From Paraburkholderia megapolitana (GTDB lineage: Bacteria; Pseudomonadota; Gammaproteobacteria; Burkholderiales; Burkholderiaceae), in assembly GCF_007556815.1 (NCBI RefSeq), contig NZ_CP041743.1:1116001-1180000 (forward strand): a DNA stretch of 64,000 bases, given 5' to 3'. How positions within the stretch are numbered: position 1 is the stretch's first letter; each line of letters starts with the position of its first letter. The notes under the pieces were generated by a model that saw nothing but the letters and a program-made list of their open reading frames with translations, did no database searches and was not told the origin of the DNA. Both the position numbers and the translations under genes were made by a program. Shown one piece after another: positions 19,882-49,693 of this stretch.

Positions 19882-21143
19882 CGGCGTTCCATCGGTTCGT
19901 TCAGGAGCGCATCCGCGGCCTTCTGGCCGGAACGGATCGCCCCTTCGATCGTCGCGGGCAGGCCGGTAGCCGTCCAGTCGCCCGCGAGCATCAGGTTATT
20001 CCAGCGAGTGCGCGTGCCGGGGCGGCGCATCTCTTCTTCGGGCAACGCGGCAAACGTCGCGCGCTTTTCGCTGACGATCTGCCAAGTCGGCATCGGCTCG
20101 ACCGGCAGGCTCGCCGCATGGGCCACTTCGGCCCACACGATCCGCGCGAGCTCTTCGCGCGGCATGTCGATCAGCCGGTCCGCGCCGCTGATCGTGACCG
20201 ACAGGCGGCCGTCGAAGGCAAACAGCCATTCGGCCGTCGAGTTCAGCAAGCCGAGCATCGGCGGGTGGCCGATGGGGGGATCGACGGCGAAATGCACGTT
20301 GACGATCGCCGTGAAGCGGCCCGGCGTCTGCACGCCGGGCACCAGCGTCTGCGCGACGTTGGGCGGTACCGCGAGCACCACCGCATCGCCATCCGCGAGT
20401 TCGATGCTCAGGTCGCCAAAGTCGAGCGCGGCGGCTCGCCCAGTCTCGGCAAATTCAATCGATTTTAGCTGCGAGCCAAGCCGGATCTCCGCACCGCCAT
20501 GCTGCAGCAGGCGCAGCGCGGGATCGACGAAGGCGCTCGCGAGGCCGTTGCGCGCCACCAGCGGCCGGCATGCCTGACCGCCCGCGGCCAGCGTTTCGCG
20601 GAGCACCGCGCCCGCCAGCTCAGCGGTACCGTCGCGCGGCTCGACATTCAGCACCGCGAGAAACAGCGGCCGCAGCAGGCGATCCCACAACGCGCCGTTA
20701 CAGCGCATCGTTTGCGCCATCGTGCGGCCCGGCTTGGCGAACAGCAGCGGTACGAGCGACAGATAATCGGCCGCATGCGTGCCGGGCACCCGCGCGGCGC
20801 CGTCGAAGACCCACAGCGGCACGCGTCCCGGCGAAAGTCGTACCGTCCAGCGTGCCTCGCTCGCCAGATCCATGAACGCATACTCGGGCTGTGCGGGGCC
20901 GACGAGTTCGTCGGCGGCACCGATCGCGCGCACGTAGTTGAGCGTCGCGTGATTGCCGGACAGCACGAGGTGATTGCCGTTATCGATCGTCGCGCCGAGT
21001 GTGCGGTCGTAATACGAGCGACAGCGCCCGCCCGCCTGGGCCGCCGCTTCGTGCAGCACCACCCGTGCACCGCGCCGCTGCAACTGGACGGCGGCGGCGA
21101 GACCGGCAAGACCTGCGCCGATCACGTGAACGAGTTTCGCCAT
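19878..21143 (-). CDS. hpnE: Hydroxysqualene dehydroxylase HpnE, 421 aa
   Basis: This flavoprotein of the amine oxidase/phytoene desaturase fold reduces hydroxysqualene to squalene. The N-terminal FAD-binding motif is HVIGAGLAGLAAAVQLQRRG (about residues 6-25), followed by AQAGGRCRSYYDRTLGATIDNG. The C-terminal FAD motif MLAGDWTATGLPATIEGAIR (about 385-405) is complete. The start at 21143 overlaps the hpnD stop (TGATG), and the stop overlaps shc (ATGA). Membership in the hpnC-hpnD-hpnE squalene set is strongly supported by the operon. Confidence 0.93.
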   Translation of the reverse strand: MAKLVHVIGAGLAGLAAAVQLQRRGARVVLHEAAAQAGGRCRSYYDRTLGATIDNGNHLVLSGNHATLNYVRAIGAADELVGPAQPEYAFMDLASEARWTVRLSPGRVPLWVFDGAARVPGTHAADYLSLVPLLFAKPGRTMAQTMRCNGALWDRLLRPLFLAVLNVEPRDGTAELAGAVLRETLAAGGQACRPLVARNGLASAFVDPALRLLQHGGAEIRLGSQLKSIEFAETGRAAALDFGDLSIELADGDAVVLAVPPNVAQTLVPGVQTPGRFTAIVNVHFAVDPPIGHPPMLGLLNSTAEWLFAFDGRLSVTISGADRLIDMPREELARIVWAEVAHAASLPVEPMPTWQIVSEKRATFAALPEEEMRRPGTRTRWNNLMLAGDWTATGLPATIEGAIRSGQKAADALLNEPMERR

Positions 21144-22036
21144 CAGAAGAAAGCGTAGCGGGCGACGATCCACAGTAGCCGCATACGCGGCTTGCTGACC
21201 TTCGTACGCGGAATGTCGAAGCCGCGGTCGACCGTGCGCTCGAGCAGACAGCGATACACACCGGACATGATGCGCGGCGCGCGCACGTGGTTGCGCGAGG
21301 CGGCGTCCATGATCGCGTCGGCGGCTGCGAAATGCTGCTTCGCGCGTTCGACGAGCGGCGCGCAGACACGCGGGATCGCGGGATCGTCGGCAATCGAAGT
21401 CGGGCTCGCGGCCGCGATACCTTCGCTCGCCAGCAGTTCGCGCGGCAGGTAGCAACGATTGATGCCGGCGTCTTCGTCAATGTCGCGCAGGATGTTCGTG
21501 AGCTGCAGCGCGCGTCCGAGGTGATGCGCGAGGTCGCGCCCCGGTTGCTCCTGCATCCCGAATATCCTCACCGATAGCCGCCCCGCCGAACTCGCGACGC
21601 GGTCGCAGTAGAGATCGAGGGTGGCTTCGTCGGGTGCGCAGATGTCTTCGGCGGCGTCCATCGCCATGCCGTCGATCATCGCGTGGAAGTCTTCGCGCTG
21701 GAGCTGGAACGTGTGGATGTGCCGCGTCAGCGCCGCGAGCGGCGCAGGTGGCGCACCCGCATAGCAGGCGTCGATATCGGCACGCCAGCGCTCGAGCGCG
21801 GCGGCGCGCTCGGCACGCGGCAGATCGCCGTCGGCGATGTCGTCGACGGCGCGGCAGAACGCGTACACCTGATACATCGCGTCGCGCTGCGCGGCCGGCA
21901 AGATGCGCATCGCCAGATAAAACGAGCTGCCTGACGTAACGGCAGCGGCATCGGTTGTTTGAGTATCGTCCACGACGAGATTGGAAACGGCCAAGACAAT
22001 CTCCGCTGAAGCGCCCAAAGGCGGTGAAGAAGTCAT
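21143..22036 (-). CDS. hpnD: Presqualene diphosphate synthase HpnD, 297 aa
   Basis: HpnD condenses two farnesyl diphosphates to presqualene diphosphate. It has the first Asp-rich motif FCRAVDDIADGDLP (about residues 58-71) and the second region GRALQLTNILRDIDEDAGIN (about 175-195), with NRCYLPRELL following, all typical of trans-isoprenyl diphosphate synthases. An N-terminal extension of about 30 residues (Thr/Ala/Ser-rich) precedes the SGSSFYLAMRILP motif. The ATG at 22036 is the first gene start of the minus-strand hopanoid operon; a second ATG downstream is possible. The 167-bp gap to the diguanylate cyclase gene presumably holds its promoter. Confidence 0.92.
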   Translation of the reverse strand: MTSSPPLGASAEIVLAVSNLVVDDTQTTDAAAVTSGSSFYLAMRILPAAQRDAMYQVYAFCRAVDDIADGDLPRAERAAALERWRADIDACYAGAPPAPLAALTRHIHTFQLQREDFHAMIDGMAMDAAEDICAPDEATLDLYCDRVASSAGRLSVRIFGMQEQPGRDLAHHLGRALQLTNILRDIDEDAGINRCYLPRELLASEGIAAASPTSIADDPAIPRVCAPLVERAKQHFAAADAIMDAASRNHVRAPRIMSGVYRCLLERTVDRGFDIPRTKVSKPRMRLLWIVARYAFF

Positions 22037-32602: not shown

Positions 32603-32616
32603 TTTATGCGCATAAA
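32603..32616. promoter_or_regulatory. Candidate parS centromere site 1
   Basis: TTTATGCGCATAAA is a perfect 14-bp palindrome. The same 14-mer recurs at 32722 and 33502, all around parA. From memory, the ParB site of Burkholderia secondary chromosomes has this core (GTTTATGCGCATAAAC); here the outermost bases differ. Confidence 0.85.
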
Positions 32617-32721: not shown

Positions 32722-32735
32722 TTTATGCGCATAAA
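32722..32735. promoter_or_regulatory. Candidate parS centromere site 2
   Basis: Second exact copy of the palindrome TTTATGCGCATAAA, about 100 bp before the parA start and therefore also placed to let ParB control the parA promoter. Confidence 0.85.
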
Positions 32736-32837: not shown

Positions 32838-33500
32838 TTGGCTGCAGAAATCATCGCGGTAACTCAGCAGAAGGGCGGGGTCGGGAAAAGCACAATCGCG
32901 ATGCACCTTGGCGCTGCTTTCCATGAAAAAGGTAAGCGAGTCCTTGTAGTAGATGCCGACGGGCAAAATACCCTCATCCATTGGGCTAGCGCGTCGTCTG
33001 ACGGCGAATCCGGCATCCCATTCCCGGTCGTCAACCTCTCTGAAGCCGGCGGCCAGATTCATCGCGAGATCAAGAAGTTCGTCGGCGATTACGATCTGAT
33101 CGTCGTCGACTGTCCTCCGTCCATCACGGAAAAGGTCTCTGGCGTCGTTCTCCTCGCCGCTACCATCGCGGTTATTCCCACCTCTTCATCTCCCGCGGAT
33201 TACTGGTCGAGCGTAGGTCTCGTCAAACTGATCCAGCAGGCTCAGGTGATGAACGAAGATCTGAAGGCCGTTTTCCTGCTGAACAAGACCGAAGAAAAGC
33301 GGATGTTGACGCGCGAACTGAAGCGCGCGCTGGAAGAATTGGGCTTCCCTCTACTCAAGACACAGATCCCCACCCGTGAAGCCTACAAACAGGCGATGGC
33401 GCTCGGCCAGACCGTTCTGCAAATGAACGATCGAGGAGCCAGGCTCGCGAGCCTTGAAATCCGGGCATGCGCCGACGAGATCGCCGCCTTGCTCCCCTGA
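32838..33500 (+). CDS. parA: Chromosome/plasmid partition ATPase ParA, 220 aa
   Basis: ParA drives segregation by ATP-dependent binding to DNA and ParB. The deviant Walker A motif QQKGGVGKSTIAMHL (about residues 10-24), Walker A' VLVVDADGQNT and Walker B LIVVDCPPS are intact. There is no N-terminal HTH, so this is a short ParA. The start is a TTG at 32838 placed correctly after GGAGGTG; no ATG fits. It forms an operon with parB, and the 24-bp gap between them contains a parS copy. Three parS-like sites near the gene suggest autoregulation. Confidence 0.92.
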   Translation: MAAEIIAVTQQKGGVGKSTIAMHLGAAFHEKGKRVLVVDADGQNTLIHWASASSDGESGIPFPVVNLSEAGGQIHREIKKFVGDYDLIVVDCPPSITEKVSGVVLLAATIAVIPTSSSPADYWSSVGLVKLIQQAQVMNEDLKAVFLLNKTEEKRMLTRELKRALEELGFPLLKTQIPTREAYKQAMALGQTVLQMNDRGARLASLEIRACADEIAALLP

Positions 33501-33501
33501 A

Positions 33502-33515
33502 TTTATGCGCATAAA
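33502..33515. promoter_or_regulatory. Candidate parS centromere site 3 between parA and parB
   Basis: Third exact copy of TTTATGCGCATAAA, placed 1 bp after the parA stop and 9 bp before the parB start. ParB bound here would sit within its own operon. Confidence 0.85.
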
Positions 33516-33524
33516 GGACCCTGA

Positions 33525-34604
33525 ATGAAACCCTCCCAGTTCGCCAAAGGCTTTCAAGCGCGTCCGGACACGACCAGCAGCGAGAAACGGACCGCACTCG
33601 ATCGTCTGAATGCAATCGACGGCCTCGTGCAACCCGGTTCGACAAAGAACAATGAAATCGCCGGTCGCTCGAGTCAGCCGGCCAGCGTCTCCGCTGTTGC
33701 CGCTATATCCAGCGACGCAGCCGAGTCCACCGAGCATGCTAATGAATCACCGGCCTACCGGGCATGGCGTCTTGAGCACGGCTATCGTCCAGGGCAAGTT
33801 ATCGAGCTTGCACTCAAAGCGATCAAACCGAGTCCGTTTAATCCGCGGCATTTTTATTTGAAGTCGTCTATCGCGGAACTGGCGGTCAATCTCGCCAAAC
33901 AGGGACAGCAACAGGCCATTCATGTCATCCCCGACTACGACAATCCCGGCAGCTATTTCGTCAGCGACGGCGGCCGCCGGGTACGCGCGCTCAAGGAAGC
34001 CAACAAGGAGACGGTGAAGGCGATCGTCGTAGATCTGCCCATCGGCATCGAAAGCTATAAACTCGGCTACGATCTCAACGTCCAGCGCGACTCGCAAACG
34101 GTTTTCGATAACGCCGTAGTCTGGAAACGCTTTCTCGATGACGGCCATTTTCAAAGCCAGAAAGAGCTGGCCGAACATCTGGGTCTCGATGAATCGACGG
34201 TCGCGGTCGCACTGTCGATCGCCAAGTTACCCGAAGTCGTCATGCACGAAATGGTTGTGCGAACGGACCGGTTCGGCTCGAACATGGCCTATCAGGTCGG
34301 CCGCTACCACTCGGCACGCGGCGCCGACTCGACGCTTCGTCTGATCAACAAGATCCTCTCGGACGATCTGAGCACCCGCCAGGTCGCCGATATCGTGAAG
34401 GGCAGGGCGAGCCCGCAGGAAAGCACCAAACCGGCCGGCCGCCAGCGCTACGCTCAGCGACTCGAAATCAAGCTGGAAGGGGTGTCGGTCGGGGATCTGA
34501 AGTCTTATGGCGACGATCGCCTCGAACTCCGGCTGCGGGGTCTGTCGAGAGAGAAGCGGGATGACATCCTGAAGCAAATCGAACAGATTCTGCTGCTCAA
34601 ATAG
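33525..34604 (+). CDS. parB: Partition protein ParB, 359 aa
   Basis: ParB binds parS and stimulates ParA. Residues about 1-85 are a polar N-terminal region. The ParB/Srx-like domain follows (about 88-185: IKPSPFNPRHFYLKSSIAEL, KQGQQQAIHVIPDY, SYFVSDGGRRVRALKEA). An HTH follows at about 205-235 (QSQKELAEHLGLDESTVAVA), then the C-terminal dimerisation part, ending LKQIEQILLLK. The GGRR segment corresponds to the conserved Arg patch (GERR in many ParBs). It ends at a strong hairpin shared with convergent repA. Confidence 0.92.
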   Translation: MKPSQFAKGFQARPDTTSSEKRTALDRLNAIDGLVQPGSTKNNEIAGRSSQPASVSAVAAISSDAAESTEHANESPAYRAWRLEHGYRPGQVIELALKAIKPSPFNPRHFYLKSSIAELAVNLAKQGQQQAIHVIPDYDNPGSYFVSDGGRRVRALKEANKETVKAIVVDLPIGIESYKLGYDLNVQRDSQTVFDNAVVWKRFLDDGHFQSQKELAEHLGLDESTVAVALSIAKLPEVVMHEMVVRTDRFGSNMAYQVGRYHSARGADSTLRLINKILSDDLSTRQVADIVKGRASPQESTKPAGRQRYAQRLEIKLEGVSVGDLKSYGDDRLELRLRGLSREKRDDILKQIEQILLLK

Positions 34605-34659: not shown

Positions 34660-36018
34660 TCAGGCCGCCCGGGATTGGCTCAGGGTGAACGCGAGCAGAT
34701 CGCCGTCGGTCGGTTCACCCCACGTGCGGCGCGCCAGCCAGTCGAAGAACGCGGTCTCGCCGAGCTTCGAATCCAGACCGCGCCGGCGCCAGTCGTCGCG
34801 CATGTGGCCGCCTAGTGTCGGCAATTCGTCCTCTTCGAACGACTGCCGGGCCACGTCCCGCTCCGTCTCACCCTGTTCGTCGTACAGCGCTCGCGCTTCC
34901 TTGCGGCGATAGGCCGAGTATTCGCCGAGCAGACGCGCCTTCAGATCGTCGGCAGGCGCGCCCGGCAGCGCCTTGGCGCCACCGCCGCTGCTCACGACCT
35001 GCAGTTCCTCGACCGGCGGCGCATAGCCCTTCTTCAGCGCGTCCTTGAAGAGCGCCGGGGCGCTGCGGACCGGCGGCAGCGCGGTGCTGCGCATGCGCTG
35101 CTCGGTCATCTGCAGGGCAGCCCGAATCCGGTTTTCCTCGCTGTCGGCGTACAGGGTTTGCGCTTCCTTCAACGGAATACCGATCTTGACCATCCGGTCG
35201 ACGAGGGTGCTGTCGAAGACATTGGGGTGCTCGTCGAGCGCGAGCATCGGCTGTTTGCGCTCGGTGACGCGGAACTGGATCTCGGCCACCCGTCGGCCTT
35301 CGCGGTGCTCGATCAGCTCGACGAAAATGTTGGTCACCGCGTTCACTTCCGCGATGGCCGGCCTCAGGTAGTCACGCTTGAAGTATTTGTACTCGCGCTT
35401 GGCTTCGTCGCCGGCTTCCGTATCGGGCGTGCCGGACAGGATGGGGCGCCACCATTCCCACGACTCGCGCATCGTCAGATGGCTGGGATTGGTCAGGTAG
35501 CGAACACAGATCTCATAGAGTGCGAGACCCGCGCTGCTGCGCAACTGGCTCTGGAACTGCAGGCTCAGACGCGCGTACTGAACCGGGTCGAGCAGCTTCT
35601 TCTTGATCTTCGGCGCAAACGAGAATTCGACCCAGACCCGGCGCGTAGCGGGATCTTCCAGAATTTCCGCGTCGGCGATCAGCGTGGAGATGCCCCACTT
35701 GCGGCCCGGCTTCTGGCTCGACGTCCCCGTGCTCCATTCGACCTGCACCGACACCATGCGCCGCAGGTGCTCCTTGACGAGCGCCGTGTCGTTCGAATCG
35801 AACGCCGAATTGGCCACGATGTCCGACAGCAGCGCCCGGTAGGTATCGCCGGACTCGTCGGCCTGCTGGGCAACGGCCAGCAGCACATTGAACAGCTTTC
35901 GGGTCAGCAGTGTGATCTTGCCGCTTTTCGGCTGGATCGCGATCGCCTCGACGGCTTTACGCAGTTCCGCCGAACTCGGACTCACCACATCGGTTTTCTT
36001 CGCGCGCTTCGTAGCCAT
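34660..36018 (-). CDS. repA: Replication initiation protein (plasmid-type RepA/Rep_3-like), 452 aa
   Basis: The N-terminal two-thirds look like an initiator with tandem winged helices: KITLLTRKLFNVLLAVAQQA (about residues 34-53), WGISTLIADAEILEDPATRR, then LYEICVRYLTNPSHLTMRES. WWRPILSGTP and YKYFKRDYLRPAIAEVNAVT (about 205-225) correspond to the second DNA-binding region of Rep_3-type initiators. The remaining 190 residues form a charged tail. The gene reads away from about 20 iterons lying directly upstream, the classic layout of an iteron replicon. It is convergent with parAB. Confidence 0.85.
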   Translation of the reverse strand: MATKRAKKTDVVSPSSAELRKAVEAIAIQPKSGKITLLTRKLFNVLLAVAQQADESGDTYRALLSDIVANSAFDSNDTALVKEHLRRMVSVQVEWSTGTSSQKPGRKWGISTLIADAEILEDPATRRVWVEFSFAPKIKKKLLDPVQYARLSLQFQSQLRSSAGLALYEICVRYLTNPSHLTMRESWEWWRPILSGTPDTEAGDEAKREYKYFKRDYLRPAIAEVNAVTNIFVELIEHREGRRVAEIQFRVTERKQPMLALDEHPNVFDSTLVDRMVKIGIPLKEAQTLYADSEENRIRAALQMTEQRMRSTALPPVRSAPALFKDALKKGYAPPVEELQVVSSGGGAKALPGAPADDLKARLLGEYSAYRRKEARALYDEQGETERDVARQSFEEDELPTLGGHMRDDWRRRGLDSKLGETAFFDWLARRTWGEPTDGDLLAFTLSQSRAA

Positions 36019-36138: not shown

Positions 36139-36266
36139 TCCCGAAGATCCTCACCTTCAGGATTTTGGGCGATCCGCCGACACCGTTGTGCCCCGGACAT
36201 TCCACAAATTCCGCATCGATTACCGATGCATCCGACCGCTTCGCGCCCATCCCGTATCGGCTCACC
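36139..36266 (+). repeat. Two outlying iterons next to repA
   Basis: TCCCGAAGATCCTCACC at 36139-36155 and TCCCGTATCGGCTCACC at 36250-36266 match the 17-bp motif of the main array. Their closeness to repA (120-250 bp from its start) would let the initiator repress its own promoter. Confidence 0.7.
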
Positions 36267-36620
36267 AATCAATTTGTCGTAATTCTGCGACGGAAAATGC
36301 GCACGAAACTTGAGGCGTTTTCCTGGCGGCGTCCCTGACGGCAACCATGGAAAACAAAACCGGGCGCTATCTCAAGGCCGCCGGGACGTGCGACCCGATA
36401 ACGGCTCGACCGCCTCTGGCAAAGGCTCACTCAGGATAGGCGCAGCAGCCACGGAGAGCGGCCTGTCATCACTGTCCGACCGTCCTCCCGGAAACTCAGG
36501 GCGATCGCCGCCACCCGTGCCCATAGCAGTCGAGACGCTTCAGAGGTCGCGCCTCCCCGGTGTCTGCAGCAAGAAACCTCGATCACCGAACCTCAGCCAA
36601 TCGCAGGAACAAAGTGTCGC

Positions 36621-37477
36621 TCCCGCAAACCCTCACCTTAAGTATCCGGGCGTGCCATGCGAAGCGAAAGGACGACCCCGTGTTCACAATGGATAGACCG
36701 TCCAGGGGTCCCGAAAACCCTCACCTAACGCGTGATCGAACGATCCTGCCGGAGAACCGCTACCCGGAACCCTCGCTCCCGGAAACACTCACCATTCGAG
36801 ATCCCTGGGAAAATATCCAGTCATTTCCGGGACTTATGAAGGAAACACAACATGCAACATGAGCCCACTGATCCCGAAAAGCCTCACCTTAAGAACATTC
36901 AGGCGCGCAGAAACCATCGTTTCGCTGCCCCCGCAAAGCCTCACCTCAGCGGATTCATGTGTTCGTAGCCGGCCTTCACCATTCAGTCTCCTGCGCGCTT
37001 TCGCCGTAAGTGACCGCAAACTTGTTCCCGTATTCGCTCACCCTTGAGCCTCCAGAGAACAAAAATGCCTCCCGAAAAGCCTCACCCATCGCCCATGAGC
37101 CGTTATTTTGATGCAACCGGATTGCCTCAACGACGCTCCCGAAATCCCTCACCTTTGGCATTTCAGCATGACCATCGATGAACTACCCTTGGTCGAATCA
37201 GAGTCCGTCCACGGGCCGACACTCCCGAAAAATCTCACCTGAACCCCGGAAACCCTTGTTTTTCGGGGCTTTCAGCCCTTCGACTCCCGAATAGCCTCAC
37301 GTCCGTGCCCCGTTTTGTCCCGGTAAGGCTCACCTTGGCTATCCGGACCCTCCCATTCACGCCCAAAACCGAATCAGAAACACCTCCCGAAAAACCTCAC
37401 CGTCAGGATTTCCGGCATCGAAGCAAGGATTGGACACATCAAGGGAGAGCGGGAACCAGGTCCCGCAAAACCTCACC
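36621..37477 (+). repeat. Dispersed iteron array, 13 copies
   Basis: Copies of the motif TCCCGNAAANCCTCACC begin at 36621, 36709, 36777, 36872, 36929, 37026, 37070, 37137, 37223, 37285, 37318, 37385 and 37461, all on the plus strand. TCCCG and CTCACC are nearly constant, and the trailing bases are often TTNNG. Spacings range from 33 to 97 bp and several are multiples of about 11 bp. Such sites bind the replication initiator; widely spaced copies often act in copy-number control by initiator titration and pairing (family knowledge). Confidence 0.85.
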
Positions 37478-37504
37478 TTTGGAGATCCCGATTATCTGGA
37501 CCGC

Positions 37505-37610
37505 CCCTGAACCCACTCACTTGGTGTCCCGCAGTGACTCACCCACGCTCCTGAACCCCATCACCCGCGCGTCCCGGATGGACTCACCATCTGTCCCGCA
37601 AAGCCTCACC
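37505..37610 (+). repeat. Phased core iterons, 5 copies at 22-23 bp intervals
   Basis: Units start at 37505, 37527, 37549, 37572 and 37594, i.e. steps of 22, 22, 23 and 22 bp (two helical turns). Three units have the full TCCCG...CTCACC form, and those at 37505 and 37549 have CCTG in place of CCCG. The cluster directly borders the AT-rich segment, the geometry of a core origin where initiator molecules line up on one DNA face. Confidence 0.85.
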
Positions 37611-37941: not shown

Positions 37942-37974
37942 ATGATTCGTCGTAGCCAAACACTGGAACGGCAT

Positions 37975-39180
37975 ATGAATCTAGATCAGGAACGTCAGGC
38001 AATCCGCGAAGAACTCAAACTACTACGCGAAAGCGGTGCCCGGCGACAGGATCTTTCCCTGCATGCGTGCAAGCGCCTCTTCTTCGATCTGGGCATCCGC
38101 CCGTCCATGGCGGCGGTAAGAGATCTCACCCAAACAGGCAGTGCCAGCGATATTCCCAAAGACATCGACAGCTTCTGGGAACGCATTCGTTCGACCTCAC
38201 AGACCCGCGTCGGAGCCGGTGCGATTCCCGAAGCGCTCGAGACGCGTGCCGGCGAACTGCTCGGCGCACTGTTCGACGAAGCGCTCAATCAGGCCCGTTC
38301 GACGCTCGACGCCGAGCGCAGCGAAATGCACGCCGAGCTTTCCGCCGCGAAACAGGCTGTACGTGAGGCGGAGATTCGCCGCGAAGCGTCGGATGAAGCG
38401 GTGCAGCGCAGCGAAGACCGGGCACAGGCCGCCGGCGAACGAATTCGGATACTCGAGGCCGATATCGCTACCGCCAATACGCACGGCGCAGTCCATCACG
38501 AAGGGCTGCAGACCGCGGTGCGCCGGCTGGAAGCCGAAAACGAAACGCTGCAAAAGCGTGTGGATACCGAGCAATCGACAAATGCAGCTTTACGCGACCG
38601 AATCGACGCTTTGCACGTCGAAATGCGCCAAAGTACCGAGCATTATGCGCAACAGATCAAGGACGCGATTGCCGAAGCAGAGCGCCGCGTCAAACCGATG
38701 CTGGTCGAGCTGGATTCGTTGCGCAGCATGGCCGCGACCTATCAGGCCGGCGTCAGGGACAACAGCCGGAAAGAGTTCGATTTCATCCAGCAGCTCGCGG
38801 CGGCGAAGGCGCGCGGCGATCGGCTTGACGCCCAGTTGCGCGAGCAGTCGGATGAAATCGACCGCCTGACCCAGGAGACCGCACAGTTGCATGCCCAGCA
38901 AGGGATCGACGCGAATGTCGGCGGACTGTTGTGGTCGCTTGCGTCGACGGGACGCTTGAGCGCCGGGGAGCTTACCCGGATTGGCACCGCGGCCGATGGA
39001 CACGTTGCGCTTCCGCAGCATTGCCCAAAGTGTTCGGAGGGTGAGCCGGAGCTCTCGCAGGTCGATCACCGGTACGAACTCTTCTGCCCGGAATGCGACC
39101 ACACCTCCGGGCCGGGCGATTCCCGGCTGGAGGCGGTTACCCGCTTCATTTCCGCTGCTATCGACACCTCCGCAGCGTGA
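37975..39180 (+). CDS. KfrA-like DNA-binding coiled-coil protein with C-terminal zinc ribbon, 401 aa
   Basis: The N-terminal region (about residues 1-110: ERQAIREELKLLRESGARRQ, then DLSLHACKRLFFDLGIRPSM) matches the KfrA_N plasmid DNA-binding domain. Residues about 110-315 are a long Glu/Ala/Arg-rich coiled coil. The end holds HCPKCSEGEPELSQVDHRYE followed by LFCPECDHTSG, a Cys4 zinc-ribbon pattern not expected in classical KfrA. KfrA proteins aid plasmid stability. I prefer the ATG at 37975 (GGAACGG before it) over the ATG at 37942, which lacks a ribosome site. Two inverted iterons follow the stop. Confidence 0.8.
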   Translation: MNLDQERQAIREELKLLRESGARRQDLSLHACKRLFFDLGIRPSMAAVRDLTQTGSASDIPKDIDSFWERIRSTSQTRVGAGAIPEALETRAGELLGALFDEALNQARSTLDAERSEMHAELSAAKQAVREAEIRREASDEAVQRSEDRAQAAGERIRILEADIATANTHGAVHHEGLQTAVRRLEAENETLQKRVDTEQSTNAALRDRIDALHVEMRQSTEHYAQQIKDAIAEAERRVKPMLVELDSLRSMAATYQAGVRDNSRKEFDFIQQLAAAKARGDRLDAQLREQSDEIDRLTQETAQLHAQQGIDANVGGLLWSLASTGRLSAGELTRIGTAADGHVALPQHCPKCSEGEPELSQVDHRYELFCPECDHTSGPGDSRLEAVTRFISAAIDTSAA

Positions 39181-39214: not shown

Positions 39215-39255
39215 GGTGAGGGAATTCGGGACCTAGAAGGTGAGGCAGTTCGGGA
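39215..39255 (-). repeat. Pair of inverted-orientation iterons after the kfrA-like gene
   Basis: GGTGAGGGAATTCGGGA at 39215-39231 and GGTGAGGCAGTTCGGGA at 39239-39255 are the complement of the iteron motif, spaced 24 bp apart. They lie 1.6 kb from the core array, in the gap between the kfrA-like and recombinase-like genes. Confidence 0.8.
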
Positions 39256-39261
39256 CGCGAA

Positions 39262-40320
39262 TCAGGCGGGTGGTTTGACTGACGGGGCATCGGCGGGAGC
39301 GCCTGGGTCTGGTTCGCTACCGTTACCCGCCACCGATTCCTGCTTTTCCGCCCACGCTTTCCACGCCCGATGCAGCCGGTTCGCGGAAACCGCCTGAGCG
39401 AACCCCAGCCACTGCCCGACCAGTTCCGGCGCCACCCCGCTTTCGAACAGATCGGCCGCGAAAGTGTTGCGCAGCGTATGTGGGCTTGCCCGCGCGGCCC
39501 TTGCTTCCGCGATTCCAGACGCTTCGACTTGCGCGTCCACTGCGCGAAGCACGGTCGCCTTGTGCATCGGCCGGCCGGCGGGCGACGCCGGAAAGACCAG
39601 ATCTCCCGTCTGCCCGGAAAGTCGACGCTCTGCCAGCCACGCATCGAGGATGGCTACAGCAAACGGCGACAGCCGGGTACGCCGCGTCAACGATGGATCG
39701 GGCGCGTCGACCGTAACCCACTGGGAGCCGGCACTCACGCAACTAACCGAGAGCATTGCCGCCTCTCCTGTCTTGATTCCGCCACCGAGAAAGAGCGCGG
39801 TGAGCGCGCGGTCGCGACGCTCTCGCCAGCGTTGAGAGTTCGACAAGGTCACGACCGGTGAGAACAACTGGGCGATCAGCGTTGCCCGTTCAGCGGCACT
39901 CAGAAAACCGGTGGGTTCATTATCGCGTGCGTCGCGCCACGCGGCTTCGCCGTCCTGCGCGATGAAGCGCGCGGGATTGGTCGATGCCAGTTCGATCGAA
40001 CGCACGTGATCGAGAACCCGCTCGATCAGTCGTAAATAGCGGACACGCTGTGGTTTTCGTACTGGCAGTTGCGCGACGAATTCCGCGATGGTCGGCATAT
40101 CGACCGTGATCAGATGCTTGTGCCGAAGGTTGAGCCAGTCGAGGAAGAAGCCCCATTGAGCACGATATACGTCGGCGGACGAACGGCGCAGACGCTGGCT
40201 CGCGAGCCATGTATCGAATGCGGTGTGTGGATCGCGACGCCATGCCTCACGTTCCTGATCGAAGAGATCGGTGGCGTGCGGACGAGGATGCCCGGTACTT
40301 GAGGCGGTCGGCGAGGACAT
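39262..40320 (-). CDS. Tyrosine recombinase-like protein with degenerate active site, 352 aa
   Basis: The N-terminal SAM-like domain (about residues 15-125: FDTWLASQRLRRSSADVYRA, QWGFFLDWLNLRHKHLITVD) and the C-terminal catalytic fold (about 150-330) are those of phage-integrase-family recombinases. The HxxR motif is kept in SPHTLRNTFAADLFESG. The first catalytic Arg is replaced by Lys in LGGGIKTGEAAML, the usual LGH His by Phe in WLGFAQ, and the nucleophilic Tyr position falls in SANRLHRAW without a Tyr. Strand-exchange activity is therefore doubtful. The start ATG at 40320 is preceded by a weak GAGA. Its stop lies beside the inverted iterons. Confidence 0.8.
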   Translation of the reverse strand: MSSPTASSTGHPRPHATDLFDQEREAWRRDPHTAFDTWLASQRLRRSSADVYRAQWGFFLDWLNLRHKHLITVDMPTIAEFVAQLPVRKPQRVRYLRLIERVLDHVRSIELASTNPARFIAQDGEAAWRDARDNEPTGFLSAAERATLIAQLFSPVVTLSNSQRWRERRDRALTALFLGGGIKTGEAAMLSVSCVSAGSQWVTVDAPDPSLTRRTRLSPFAVAILDAWLAERRLSGQTGDLVFPASPAGRPMHKATVLRAVDAQVEASGIAEARAARASPHTLRNTFAADLFESGVAPELVGQWLGFAQAVSANRLHRAWKAWAEKQESVAGNGSEPDPGAPADAPSVKPPA

Positions 40321-40472
40321 GATCTCTATTTCAGTTAGTTGCGTAATTGTAGGATATCTGCAGGTCGTCACAGGGCACTCAGGTGATATCGCCGTCGAAA
40401 GAACCTGACTGGTGAGACTTTCCAGGAGATCGCCCACACGCAGTGCCGAGAGGCGGCCGAGCCCGCCGGACG

Positions 40473-48411: not shown

Positions 48412-49293
48412 ATGGATCACTCGACTCTGGAAATTTTTTGCGCCGTTGCGGAGGAGCTCAGCATCACCCGGGCAGCCCAGCGGCTCGGCCGGGTGCAGTC
48501 CAACGTCACGACGCGCGTTCAACAGCTCGAAGAAGAACTCGGCGTGACGCTGTTCGTGCGGGAAAACAAGAGAATGCAGTTGTCACCGCAGGGTGAAAAA
48601 TTTCTCGGCTACGCAAAGGGGATGCTGGCGCTGGCAGAAGAAGCGCGTCAGATACTTCGCCCCGGGCAACCCGAAGGTCTGCTGCGCATAGGGGCAATGG
48701 AAAGCACGGTCGCGAGCCGTCTGCCGGAGCCGCTCGCTCGCTATCACCAGATGTGGCCTGGCGTGCAGCTTCGGTTGAGTACCGCCCCGTCTCGCCAGCT
48801 CATCGATGCATTGAAAGATCGCACGCTCGACTGCGCATTCGCGGCGCTTCCGCTCTCAACCGGTGAGACGCCGCAGGACCTGGCCGAACTGGGGCTGACG
48901 GGAGTTCGGGTCTACACCGAGCAACTGGTGCTGGTGTTGCCGCCGGACCACCCGACGGTACGAGAGGCGTCCGATTTGAGAATCCATTCTCTCGCGGCGT
49001 TTAAACAGGGCTGCACCTATCGATCGATCGCGGAAGACTGGTTGCGTTCGCAACCGACCGACACCGTCATCGATATCCAGGAGGTCGGTTCGTATCACGC
49101 CATGCTGGCTTGTGTCGCTTCGGGCTCGTGCATCAGTTTTATCCCACGCAGCGTGATCGAACTGGCGCCCGAAACAACCCGGCTACGCCAGAAGCCAATC
49201 GGCAACGCCGATACATGGATGATCTGGCGCAACGGCTATGAAACACCTGCGCTTAGCGCATTGCGCGAAGCGTTAGCGTTAGCCCATGACTGA
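48412..49293 (+). CDS. LysR-family regulator divergent from the CoA-transferase, 293 aa
   Basis: A winged HTH is at residues 2-60 (STLEIFCAVAEELSITRAAQ, RLGRVQSNVTTRVQQLEEEL), and a periplasmic-binding-protein-like effector domain at about 90-290 (GLLRIGAMESTVASRLPEPL, LVLVLPPDHPTVREASDL). Sequence features such as the early MES motif and the C-terminal GSCISFIPRSVIELAP resemble the PtrR/YneJ-type subgroup. It probably activates the divergent CoA-transferase gene. Its stop codon is immediately followed by an isolated iteron of the replication origin. Confidence 0.88.
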   Translation: MDHSTLEIFCAVAEELSITRAAQRLGRVQSNVTTRVQQLEEELGVTLFVRENKRMQLSPQGEKFLGYAKGMLALAEEARQILRPGQPEGLLRIGAMESTVASRLPEPLARYHQMWPGVQLRLSTAPSRQLIDALKDRTLDCAFAALPLSTGETPQDLAELGLTGVRVYTEQLVLVLPPDHPTVREASDLRIHSLAAFKQGCTYRSIAEDWLRSQPTDTVIDIQEVGSYHAMLACVASGSCISFIPRSVIELAPETTRLRQKPIGNADTWMIWRNGYETPALSALREALALAHD

Positions 49294-49693
49294 AGGTGAG
49301 ATTTTTCGGGAGCACGGTGGCGGGCAACTGAAGACGCTGACGCACCGGAACGCGCCACAAAGGCATGAGTCACGCTACCGATGCCAGTCGCATGATTCCA
49401 TTATTTGCGAAGCCGCAAATATCCATTTCCAGATCCAGAAATTTACGAAAATTACGCGCCGCTGGTTGCCAATCAACCGGATCGATCTGCGTCGCATGGG
49501 GATTAGTCGATAGACGGCGATACTTTCGTTTAGCGAAACGGTGTCGACATTGCATTGCCAGGTCATCGCACTGAAGATGAAAAACTTGCAATGTTCATGA
49601 CATGCCTGTCGATGCCATGCGCGGTTTATTCTAGGGCCGCTTCAACCGATTCAACCGACTCTCCGGTTAGCCCCCAACCTCACGCAGATCACT
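49294..49693. other. 400-bp gap between two lysR genes, with an isolated iteron
   Basis: No credible gene. The iteron at 49295-49311 is described separately. The section 49380-49620 is less GC-rich than its neighbours and probably holds the promoter of the next LysR gene. Small frames here lack ribosome sites. Confidence 0.55.
49295..49311 (-). repeat. Isolated iteron copy 11.7 kb from the origin array
   Basis: GGTGAGATTTTTCGGGA is the exact complement of the array member at 37223-37239 (TCCCGAAAAATCTCACC), and its flanking TTCAG matches the trailing bases of array members. It lies 1 bp after a LysR stop codon. An exact 17-bp match outside the array is very unlikely by chance. Confidence 0.75.

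Follow-up and report, generated by a model that had tools for sequence, protein, structure and literature searches.

A plasmid-type origin on the chromid

The window, the whole stretch of 64,000 bp analysed here, corresponds to positions 1,116,001-1,180,000 of a 3,016,794-bp contig of Paraburkholderia megapolitana, whose genome (7.63 Mb) is assembled in three contigs. It contains the chromid origin, ori2. On the forward strand, genes for a ParA-like ATPase (32838..33500) and a ParB-like protein (33525..34604) precede the reverse-strand gene for RepA (34660..36018), an initiator of the Rep3 family in which both Rep3_N and Rep3_C score above the curated cut-offs (PF01051, 45.4 bits for a cut-off of 22.4; PF21205, 40.1 bits for a cut-off of 21.1). 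Next comes the origin iteron array (36139..37610), made of 11 exact matches to GGTGAGNNNNTKCGGGA and of degenerate copies, all on the reverse strand. A gene for a KfrA_N-domain protein (37942..39180, forward strand) separates the array from a doublet of outward-pointing, forward-strand iterons (39215..39231 and 39239..39255). Since the array adjoins a Rep3 initiator and ParA-like, ParB-like and KfrA_N proteins, ori2 is of the plasmid type, and it has the makings of a Rep3 iteron replicon, with Rep3 WH1 and WH2 domains and direct iterons beside the rep gene. All 20 relatives likewise have the array next to repA and on its strand, which makes 21 genomes with the present one. An inverted copy 1.2-2.2 kb past the array is present in 68 of the 79 named relatives' loci that reach that far.

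Upstream of and within the par region, a palindrome, TTTATGCGCATAAA, which we presume may be parS, occurs at 32603..32616, 32722-32735 and 33502-33515; read by eye, it differs from the iteron. The best solved relative of RepA is the pi protein (2nra), a weak match (E=0.0062). A protein search with RepA gave only close relatives among the best 120 of 562 matches, and did not diversify the alignment; an AlphaFold2 model from 9 close sequences was too poor for use (mean pLDDT 46.7, pTM 0.26). A tyrosine-recombinase (Phage_integrase) gene also adjoins ori2 (39262-40437, reverse strand); a stretch 59% identical to it lies at a like place in a genome of another genus (G174, L203:1615-2646).

An exact iteron behind a lysR gene

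The iteron under study, GGTGAGATTTTTCGGGA, occupies 49295..49311 on the forward strand and points outward. It starts 1 bp past the stop of a lysR-family gene (48412..49293, forward strand), as the first-pass annotation of this DNA had stated. Equally correct were its descriptions of the site as an exact copy, inverted relative to the array and 11.7 kb outside the origin: all 17 of 17 bases match the reverse-strand array iteron at 37223..37239, and 11,701 bp separate the site from the last exact array iteron (37594). Two other claims fell. The copy is not lone, as further exact copies are present in the window at 39215 (+), 39239 (+) and 21556 (-), and the contig carries three others past the end of the window, at C1:1199293, 1293571 and 1323472; a scan of the genome returned 19 exact matches to GGTGAGNNNNTKCGGGA. 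Nor is a TTCAG-type flank shared with the array, since the array twin is followed by TGAAC and, by eye, no array copy reads ACCTTCAG; the flank common to some copies is ACCTT. A search of the window tolerating up to 3 mismatches gave 14 matches, for 0.15 expected from shuffled sequence.

A DNA search of 144 genus genomes found the lysR gene with its site at full length in two only, P. megapolitana and its closest relative, P. acidicola (G039). Any match at all was seen in 119 genomes, and most of the others were short pieces of lysR-type genes. Measured against the first-pass annotation's own refuting condition, absence of the site from close relatives, the outcome is mixed: the iteron is identical in P. 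acidicola, and the full-length lysR locus is confined to these two of the 144 genomes. The intergenic DNA near the site is itself 172/188 identical between the two genomes, so that 17 of 17 matching bases are expected with a probability of about 0.22. Past +9.2 kb, gene order is no longer shared with the other species; the focal copy lies beyond this point and had no syntenic anchor in the 7 other genomes of an eight-genome synteny test. The focal copy is therefore lineage-specific and carries no selection signal of its own. It does have the orientation, the position class and the extended flank (AA before, GC after) of the other copies outside the array, hereafter called satellites.

Between +9.2 and +126.8 kb from ori2, the C1 contig has about 117 kb where genome G142 has 14 kb with eight exact satellites. 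This segment contains two exact outward copies of its own.

The motif accompanies RepA

Eighteen of the 19 exact matches in the genome are on the 3.0-Mb chromid C1 (1.137 to 1.323 Mb), none of them more than 170 kb from ori2, and one is on C3; the reversed control gave none. Allowing one mismatch, 45 matches were found versus 14 in the reversed control. At that level C3 has 12 matches which, with a whole-genome control of 14, look like chance, and exact matches off the chromid stay near chance. Sites of the origin type thus lie outside the origin, on the same replicon and near it, as in a titration locus.

Among 60 genomes of the family, at least three motif matches (3-28) were present in exactly the 19 that have a RepA of at least 77% identity, and the other 41 had 0-2 matches, so that the motif goes with RepA in 19/19 versus 0/41 genomes. 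RepA and a short array persist in two reduced genomes, G150 and G170, whose chromid contigs measure 72 and 66 kb; their three exact matches all belong to the array. No KfrA match was found in the 16-19 kb fetched from each; because the array remains there without a nearby KfrA match, the motif follows RepA rather than KfrA in these genomes. In G187, with a contig of 790 kb, four copies lie outside the array. Within the genus, 39 genomes, including the present one, have 9-31 matches each, for a total of 12 in the reversed control.

Satellites as a class are retained

Satellites surround ori2 in P. megapolitana and in all 20 related genomes mapped, and their retention was followed by synteny in eight genomes. 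Of 581 site-genome pairs, 168 had no syntenic anchor. Among the 413 anchored ones, an exact copy in the same orientation was present in the matching interval in 389, and none in 24; an opposite-only copy was never seen. Control 17-mers from nearby intergenic DNA, under the same 13-position mask, were found in 284 of 3941 cases (7%). The intervals extend up to 12 kb, so that a match need not be the ortholog, and the genomes are related.

A home-made gene caller placed in intergenic DNA 89 of the 97 exact copies that nine genomes have outside their arrays, for a called coding fraction of 0.71-0.81. The flank is also more regular than in the array: each of the three A residues before the motif is present at 0.86, 0.86 and 0.96 in 90 satellites versus 0.43, 0.55 and 0.72 in 657 array copies. 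Because this flank is stronger than in the array, satellites do not resemble decayed array copies. Judged by these sequence comparisons, the satellite class appears to be maintained by selection, and the class is neither weaker than the array nor lost between species, as remnants of rearrangement should be.

Seven of the eight non-intergenic copies are one and the same, located inside a gene of the squalene/phytoene synthase family. In the window, this outward satellite of the repA side (21556..21572, reverse strand) lies within the SQS_PSY-family gene 21143-22036, where it reads, in rare codons, GTG AGG ATA TTC GGG. All 21 genomes have a copy on the repA side at a distance of 12-19.5 kb. Where the gene was read, in nine genomes, it has TCG GTG AGG ATA TTC GGG ATG at this place, AGG being kept in 9/9 and ATA in 8/9 (ATT in G024), codons that account for 2.6% of Arg and 2.2% of Ile codons, respectively. 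Of the 214 codons of this gene whose residue is invariant, only 86 are the same throughout the nine genomes.

Satellites mostly point outward

Orientation was scored in 21 genus genomes of few contigs (2-10, P. megapolitana included), with direction set by the array strand; array strand and repA position agree in all 21. On the ori2 contigs, 280 copies lie outside the array. Up to 250 kb on the kfrA side, 169 are outward and 36 inward, and on the repA side 24 of 25 are outward, with one inward; 50 copies are farther than 250 kb from the array. Of the 147 copies of the kfrA side that lie up to 50 kb out, 140 are outward. The seven inward ones belong to five of the 21 genomes (G059, G026, G040 with two, G011 with two, and G020). 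In nine assembled genomes, the same interval has 63 outward exact copies and no inward one, and copies without a syntenic anchor (9 in G024, 2 in G000, the present genome) are outward too. One inward copy appears in G000, at +49.2 kb, once a mismatch is tolerated.

Base composition predicts an outward to inward ratio of 1.27:1, and 400 permuted patterns gave 8 matches, 4 each way. GC skew was rejected as the cause of polarity, as it predicts this ratio only. Gene direction was rejected likewise, because the distal pair described below opposes both its neighbours. The motif is not KOPS, whose sequence is different (PMC4948915).

Polarity is not universal, and exceptions exist. It is absent from three genomes of genus g10, whose kfrA side has as many inward as outward copies (7 each). 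In three genomes of genus g12, all 13 copies of the kfrA side are outward; for the repA side, two of the three have 13 outward copies and 4 inward ones, the distant matches of G154 being left out. In 80 named relatives' loci, covering at most 10 kb per side, contig permitting, the ratio of outward to inward copies is 89 to 4 on the kfrA side and 1 to 7 on the repA side. Seven Caballeronia-type loci (L089, L101, L102, L110, L111, L112 and L115) also run counter to the general polarity, with a shared inward copy at about 10 kb on the repA side.

Confinement to the chromid is also imperfect. Besides the 50 distant copies on ori2 contigs, the 21 genomes have 18 exact matches on other contigs, versus 4 reversed-control matches in whole genomes; this mild excess may hide real sites on chromosomes or plasmids.

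An origin-facing pair and other remote sites

Much of the inward remainder belongs to a single locus, a distal pair of origin-facing iterons 327-365 bp apart, 54-270 kb out, present at least in part in 15 of the 21 genomes. In P. megapolitana the pair is at C1:1323472 and 1323837. Orthology was shown by blastn in 10 genomes (L119-L127 and L138, P. megapolitana and P. acidicola included); it was taken from the synteny interval test in G142, G022, G057 and G065, and from spacing alone in G108. In 7 of the 10 genomes linked by blastn, both 17-mers are exact and the intergenic sequence around them has diverged too far for a good alignment; two others have one exact iteron and one with a mismatch, and G024 has a single one. 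Except in G042, this locus is farther from ori2 than any outward copy counted up to 250 kb (14 of the 15 genomes); in some genomes scattered copies lie farther out. In the nine genomes examined, the pair opposes both flanking genes. In L126 these are a beta-lactamase-family gene on one side, and a pair formed by an aldo/keto reductase and an aldehyde dehydrogenase gene on the other.

Farther away, 1.3-2.0 Mb from ori2, a divergent iteron pair with a spacing of 99-261 bp is present in 8 of the 21 genomes; in the seven of these replicons that have a normal size, the distance is about 0.41-0.47 of the replicon. The five loci fetched (L128-L132) are linked by blastn, and an M23 peptidase gene is nearby in L129. 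A crude regular expression for dif had no match in loci L119-L138, which does not prove its absence. Genus g12 has a second cluster about 150 kb from ori2 (G174, L204:9271-12788; a like cluster in G190), with five or six copies outward and two inward about 3 kb apart. In G174 it surrounds an 818-residue CoA-ligase/acetyltransferase gene.

Discussion

We consider it rather likely that the iteron behind lysR is one of a set of origin-type sites lying outside the array on the chromid and pointing mostly outward, that it binds RepA, and that the set would titrate or handcuff RepA, restraining re-initiation at ori2. Forks are reported to move at about 33 kb/min on both c1 and c2 of B. cenocepacia (PMC4948915). 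At this speed, the forks would reach satellites up to 50 kb out no later than about 1.5 min after firing, and the focal site would be duplicated within the first minute of replication. Because these satellites would be copied early, RepA sites would double soon after firing; the additional sites, if RepA binds them, would take up the protein or tether the array, in the manner proposed for RctB of V. cholerae (PMC3937223), and RepA so titrated or handcuffed would keep ori2 from firing twice. The titration load should be moderate, given that each genome has only 4-14 copies within 250 kb beside 4-12 in the array. Of the two ideas put forward in the first-pass annotation, a remote regulatory site or a remnant of rearrangement, the former is the better one and is partly supported, through the synteny of the class, a flank consensus stronger than in the array and co-occurrence with RepA.

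Titration alone predicts no polarity, and leaves the orientation bias and the origin-facing pair unexplained. These two features could tentatively be taken to favour an involvement of the replication fork. In one orientation, bound RepA would let the outgoing fork pass, and the origin-facing pair would pause or mark it, making the satellites a polar timing device rather than a passive sink. This we regard as possible, though doubtful. It fits the near-complete outward bias on both sides of the array, measured along a direction on which array strand and repA position always agree, and far above what base composition or permuted patterns give. It fits as well the outward orientation of unanchored copies, the place of the origin-facing copy or pair beyond all outward ones within 250 kb in 14 of 15 genomes, and its opposition to both flanking genes. 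A left-right asymmetry of dosage near the origin of B. cenocepacia c2 goes in the same direction (PMC4948915). The fork reading is weakened by the seven inward copies within 50 kb and the additional mismatched one in P. megapolitana, by the seven Caballeronia-type loci, and by the lack of polarity in g10. Furthermore, we know of no polar fork block by a Rep3 protein. Extending it, one may speculate, with little assurance, that the fork senses the direction of conserved RepA sites around Burkholderiaceae chromid origins. These would point outward close to the origin, an origin-facing pair would mark the end of the field, a divergent pair would lie in the half towards the terminus, and the passage of the fork over RepA-bound sites would itself time or limit initiation.

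The other explanations appear weaker still. The motif might be bound by another protein, KfrA or a nucleoid organiser, array and satellites then organising the origin domain rather than controlling initiation. The location of kfrA between the array and the inverted copies in the window would suit such a role, which is nevertheless improbable given that motif presence follows RepA (19/19 versus 0/41), that the array persists without a detectable nearby KfrA in G150 and G170, and that the parS-like palindrome is a different sequence. That the focal copy is a neutral remnant of array rearrangement or duplication seems quite unlikely: it does lie past the synteny break at +9.2 kb, in a lineage-specific segment, with its lysR locus at full length in only 2 of 144 genomes, and taken alone it may be neutral, but it shows the orientation and extended flank of a class that matches the consensus better than the array does and is retained far beyond control DNA, and which the remnant idea fits poorly. 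Least probable of all, and by our estimate very unlikely, is a local regulator site for the adjacent lysR or the downstream genes. It would account for a position 1 bp past one lysR stop and upstream of a second lysR gene; in the nine genomes, however, satellites are found between convergent, divergent and tandem neighbours alike.

Initiator-type sites away from an origin have known counterparts, to which RepA titration by the satellites can be compared. In E. coli, datA gathers DnaA boxes in one locus, whereas the present sites are single or paired Rep3-type iterons spread over tens to hundreds of kb. The likeness is that datA, too, is an origin-proximal locus of initiator-binding sites proposed to limit re-initiation (cited in PMC6090056 and PMC3937223). 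V. cholerae has extra-origin RctB sites in a region of 74 kb, which lies 40 kb from its ori2 (Baek and Chattoraj 2014, PMC3937223). They are iteron-type sites of a secondary chromosome, outside the origin, near it and on the same replicon, as here. Such ori2-type sites inhibit chrII replication (PMC3937223; PMC6090056), presumably by titration (PMC3937223), and we propose the same for the RepA satellites by analogy; deletion of the chrII-10 site gave no growth phenotype (PMC3937223). The two systems differ in initiator and motif, and for the present one initiator binding and inhibition are predictions. They differ also in that the satellites are mostly outward, conserved in the genus and extend to an origin-facing pair; the word "orientation" is absent from the main text of PMC3937223. 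The crtS site of V. cholerae, located on Chr1 (PMC6090056), is likewise a remote site controlling an initiator. In our genome, exact matches off the chromid are near chance (one, on C3); the 21 genomes together show the mild off-contig excess given above (18 versus 4), and an iteron pattern could miss a crtS-type site, because crtS is not an iteron.

Closer to our case, the c2 iteron that Du et al. (2016) described in B. cenocepacia J2315 has the consensus ctCCCGAAAAacCTCACCTtt, which is the present motif on the other strand; the authors also reported further remote c2 copies, including a cluster 140 kb away (PMC4948915). The available part of that paper describes no polarity, synteny test, rare-codon copy or distal pair. 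Extra-origin iterons in V. cholerae and remote c2 copies in B. cenocepacia are thus already known. A search by titles and beginnings of abstracts, mostly outside subscription journals, yielded no published report of iteron polarity, syntenic conservation, a distal pair or an in-gene copy, and within that literature these features appear new.

To our knowledge, no site that times the replication of large replicons has been found in Burkholderiaceae, and the satellites bear on the question of how replication is limited and timed in chromids outside Vibrio. A genus-wide, selected field of initiator-type sites provides named targets for the study of chromid replication control, and polarity together with the rare-codon iteron argues that the sites do more than soak up protein. 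Large replicons start after the chromosome and finish nearly together with it in most strains tested (PMC13342612). In two genomes, ori2 and its satellites are on a very large replicon (G024:C1, 6.68 of 6.7 Mb, and G100:C2, 6.58 Mb), as if chromosome and chromid had fused, and the satellites persist there.
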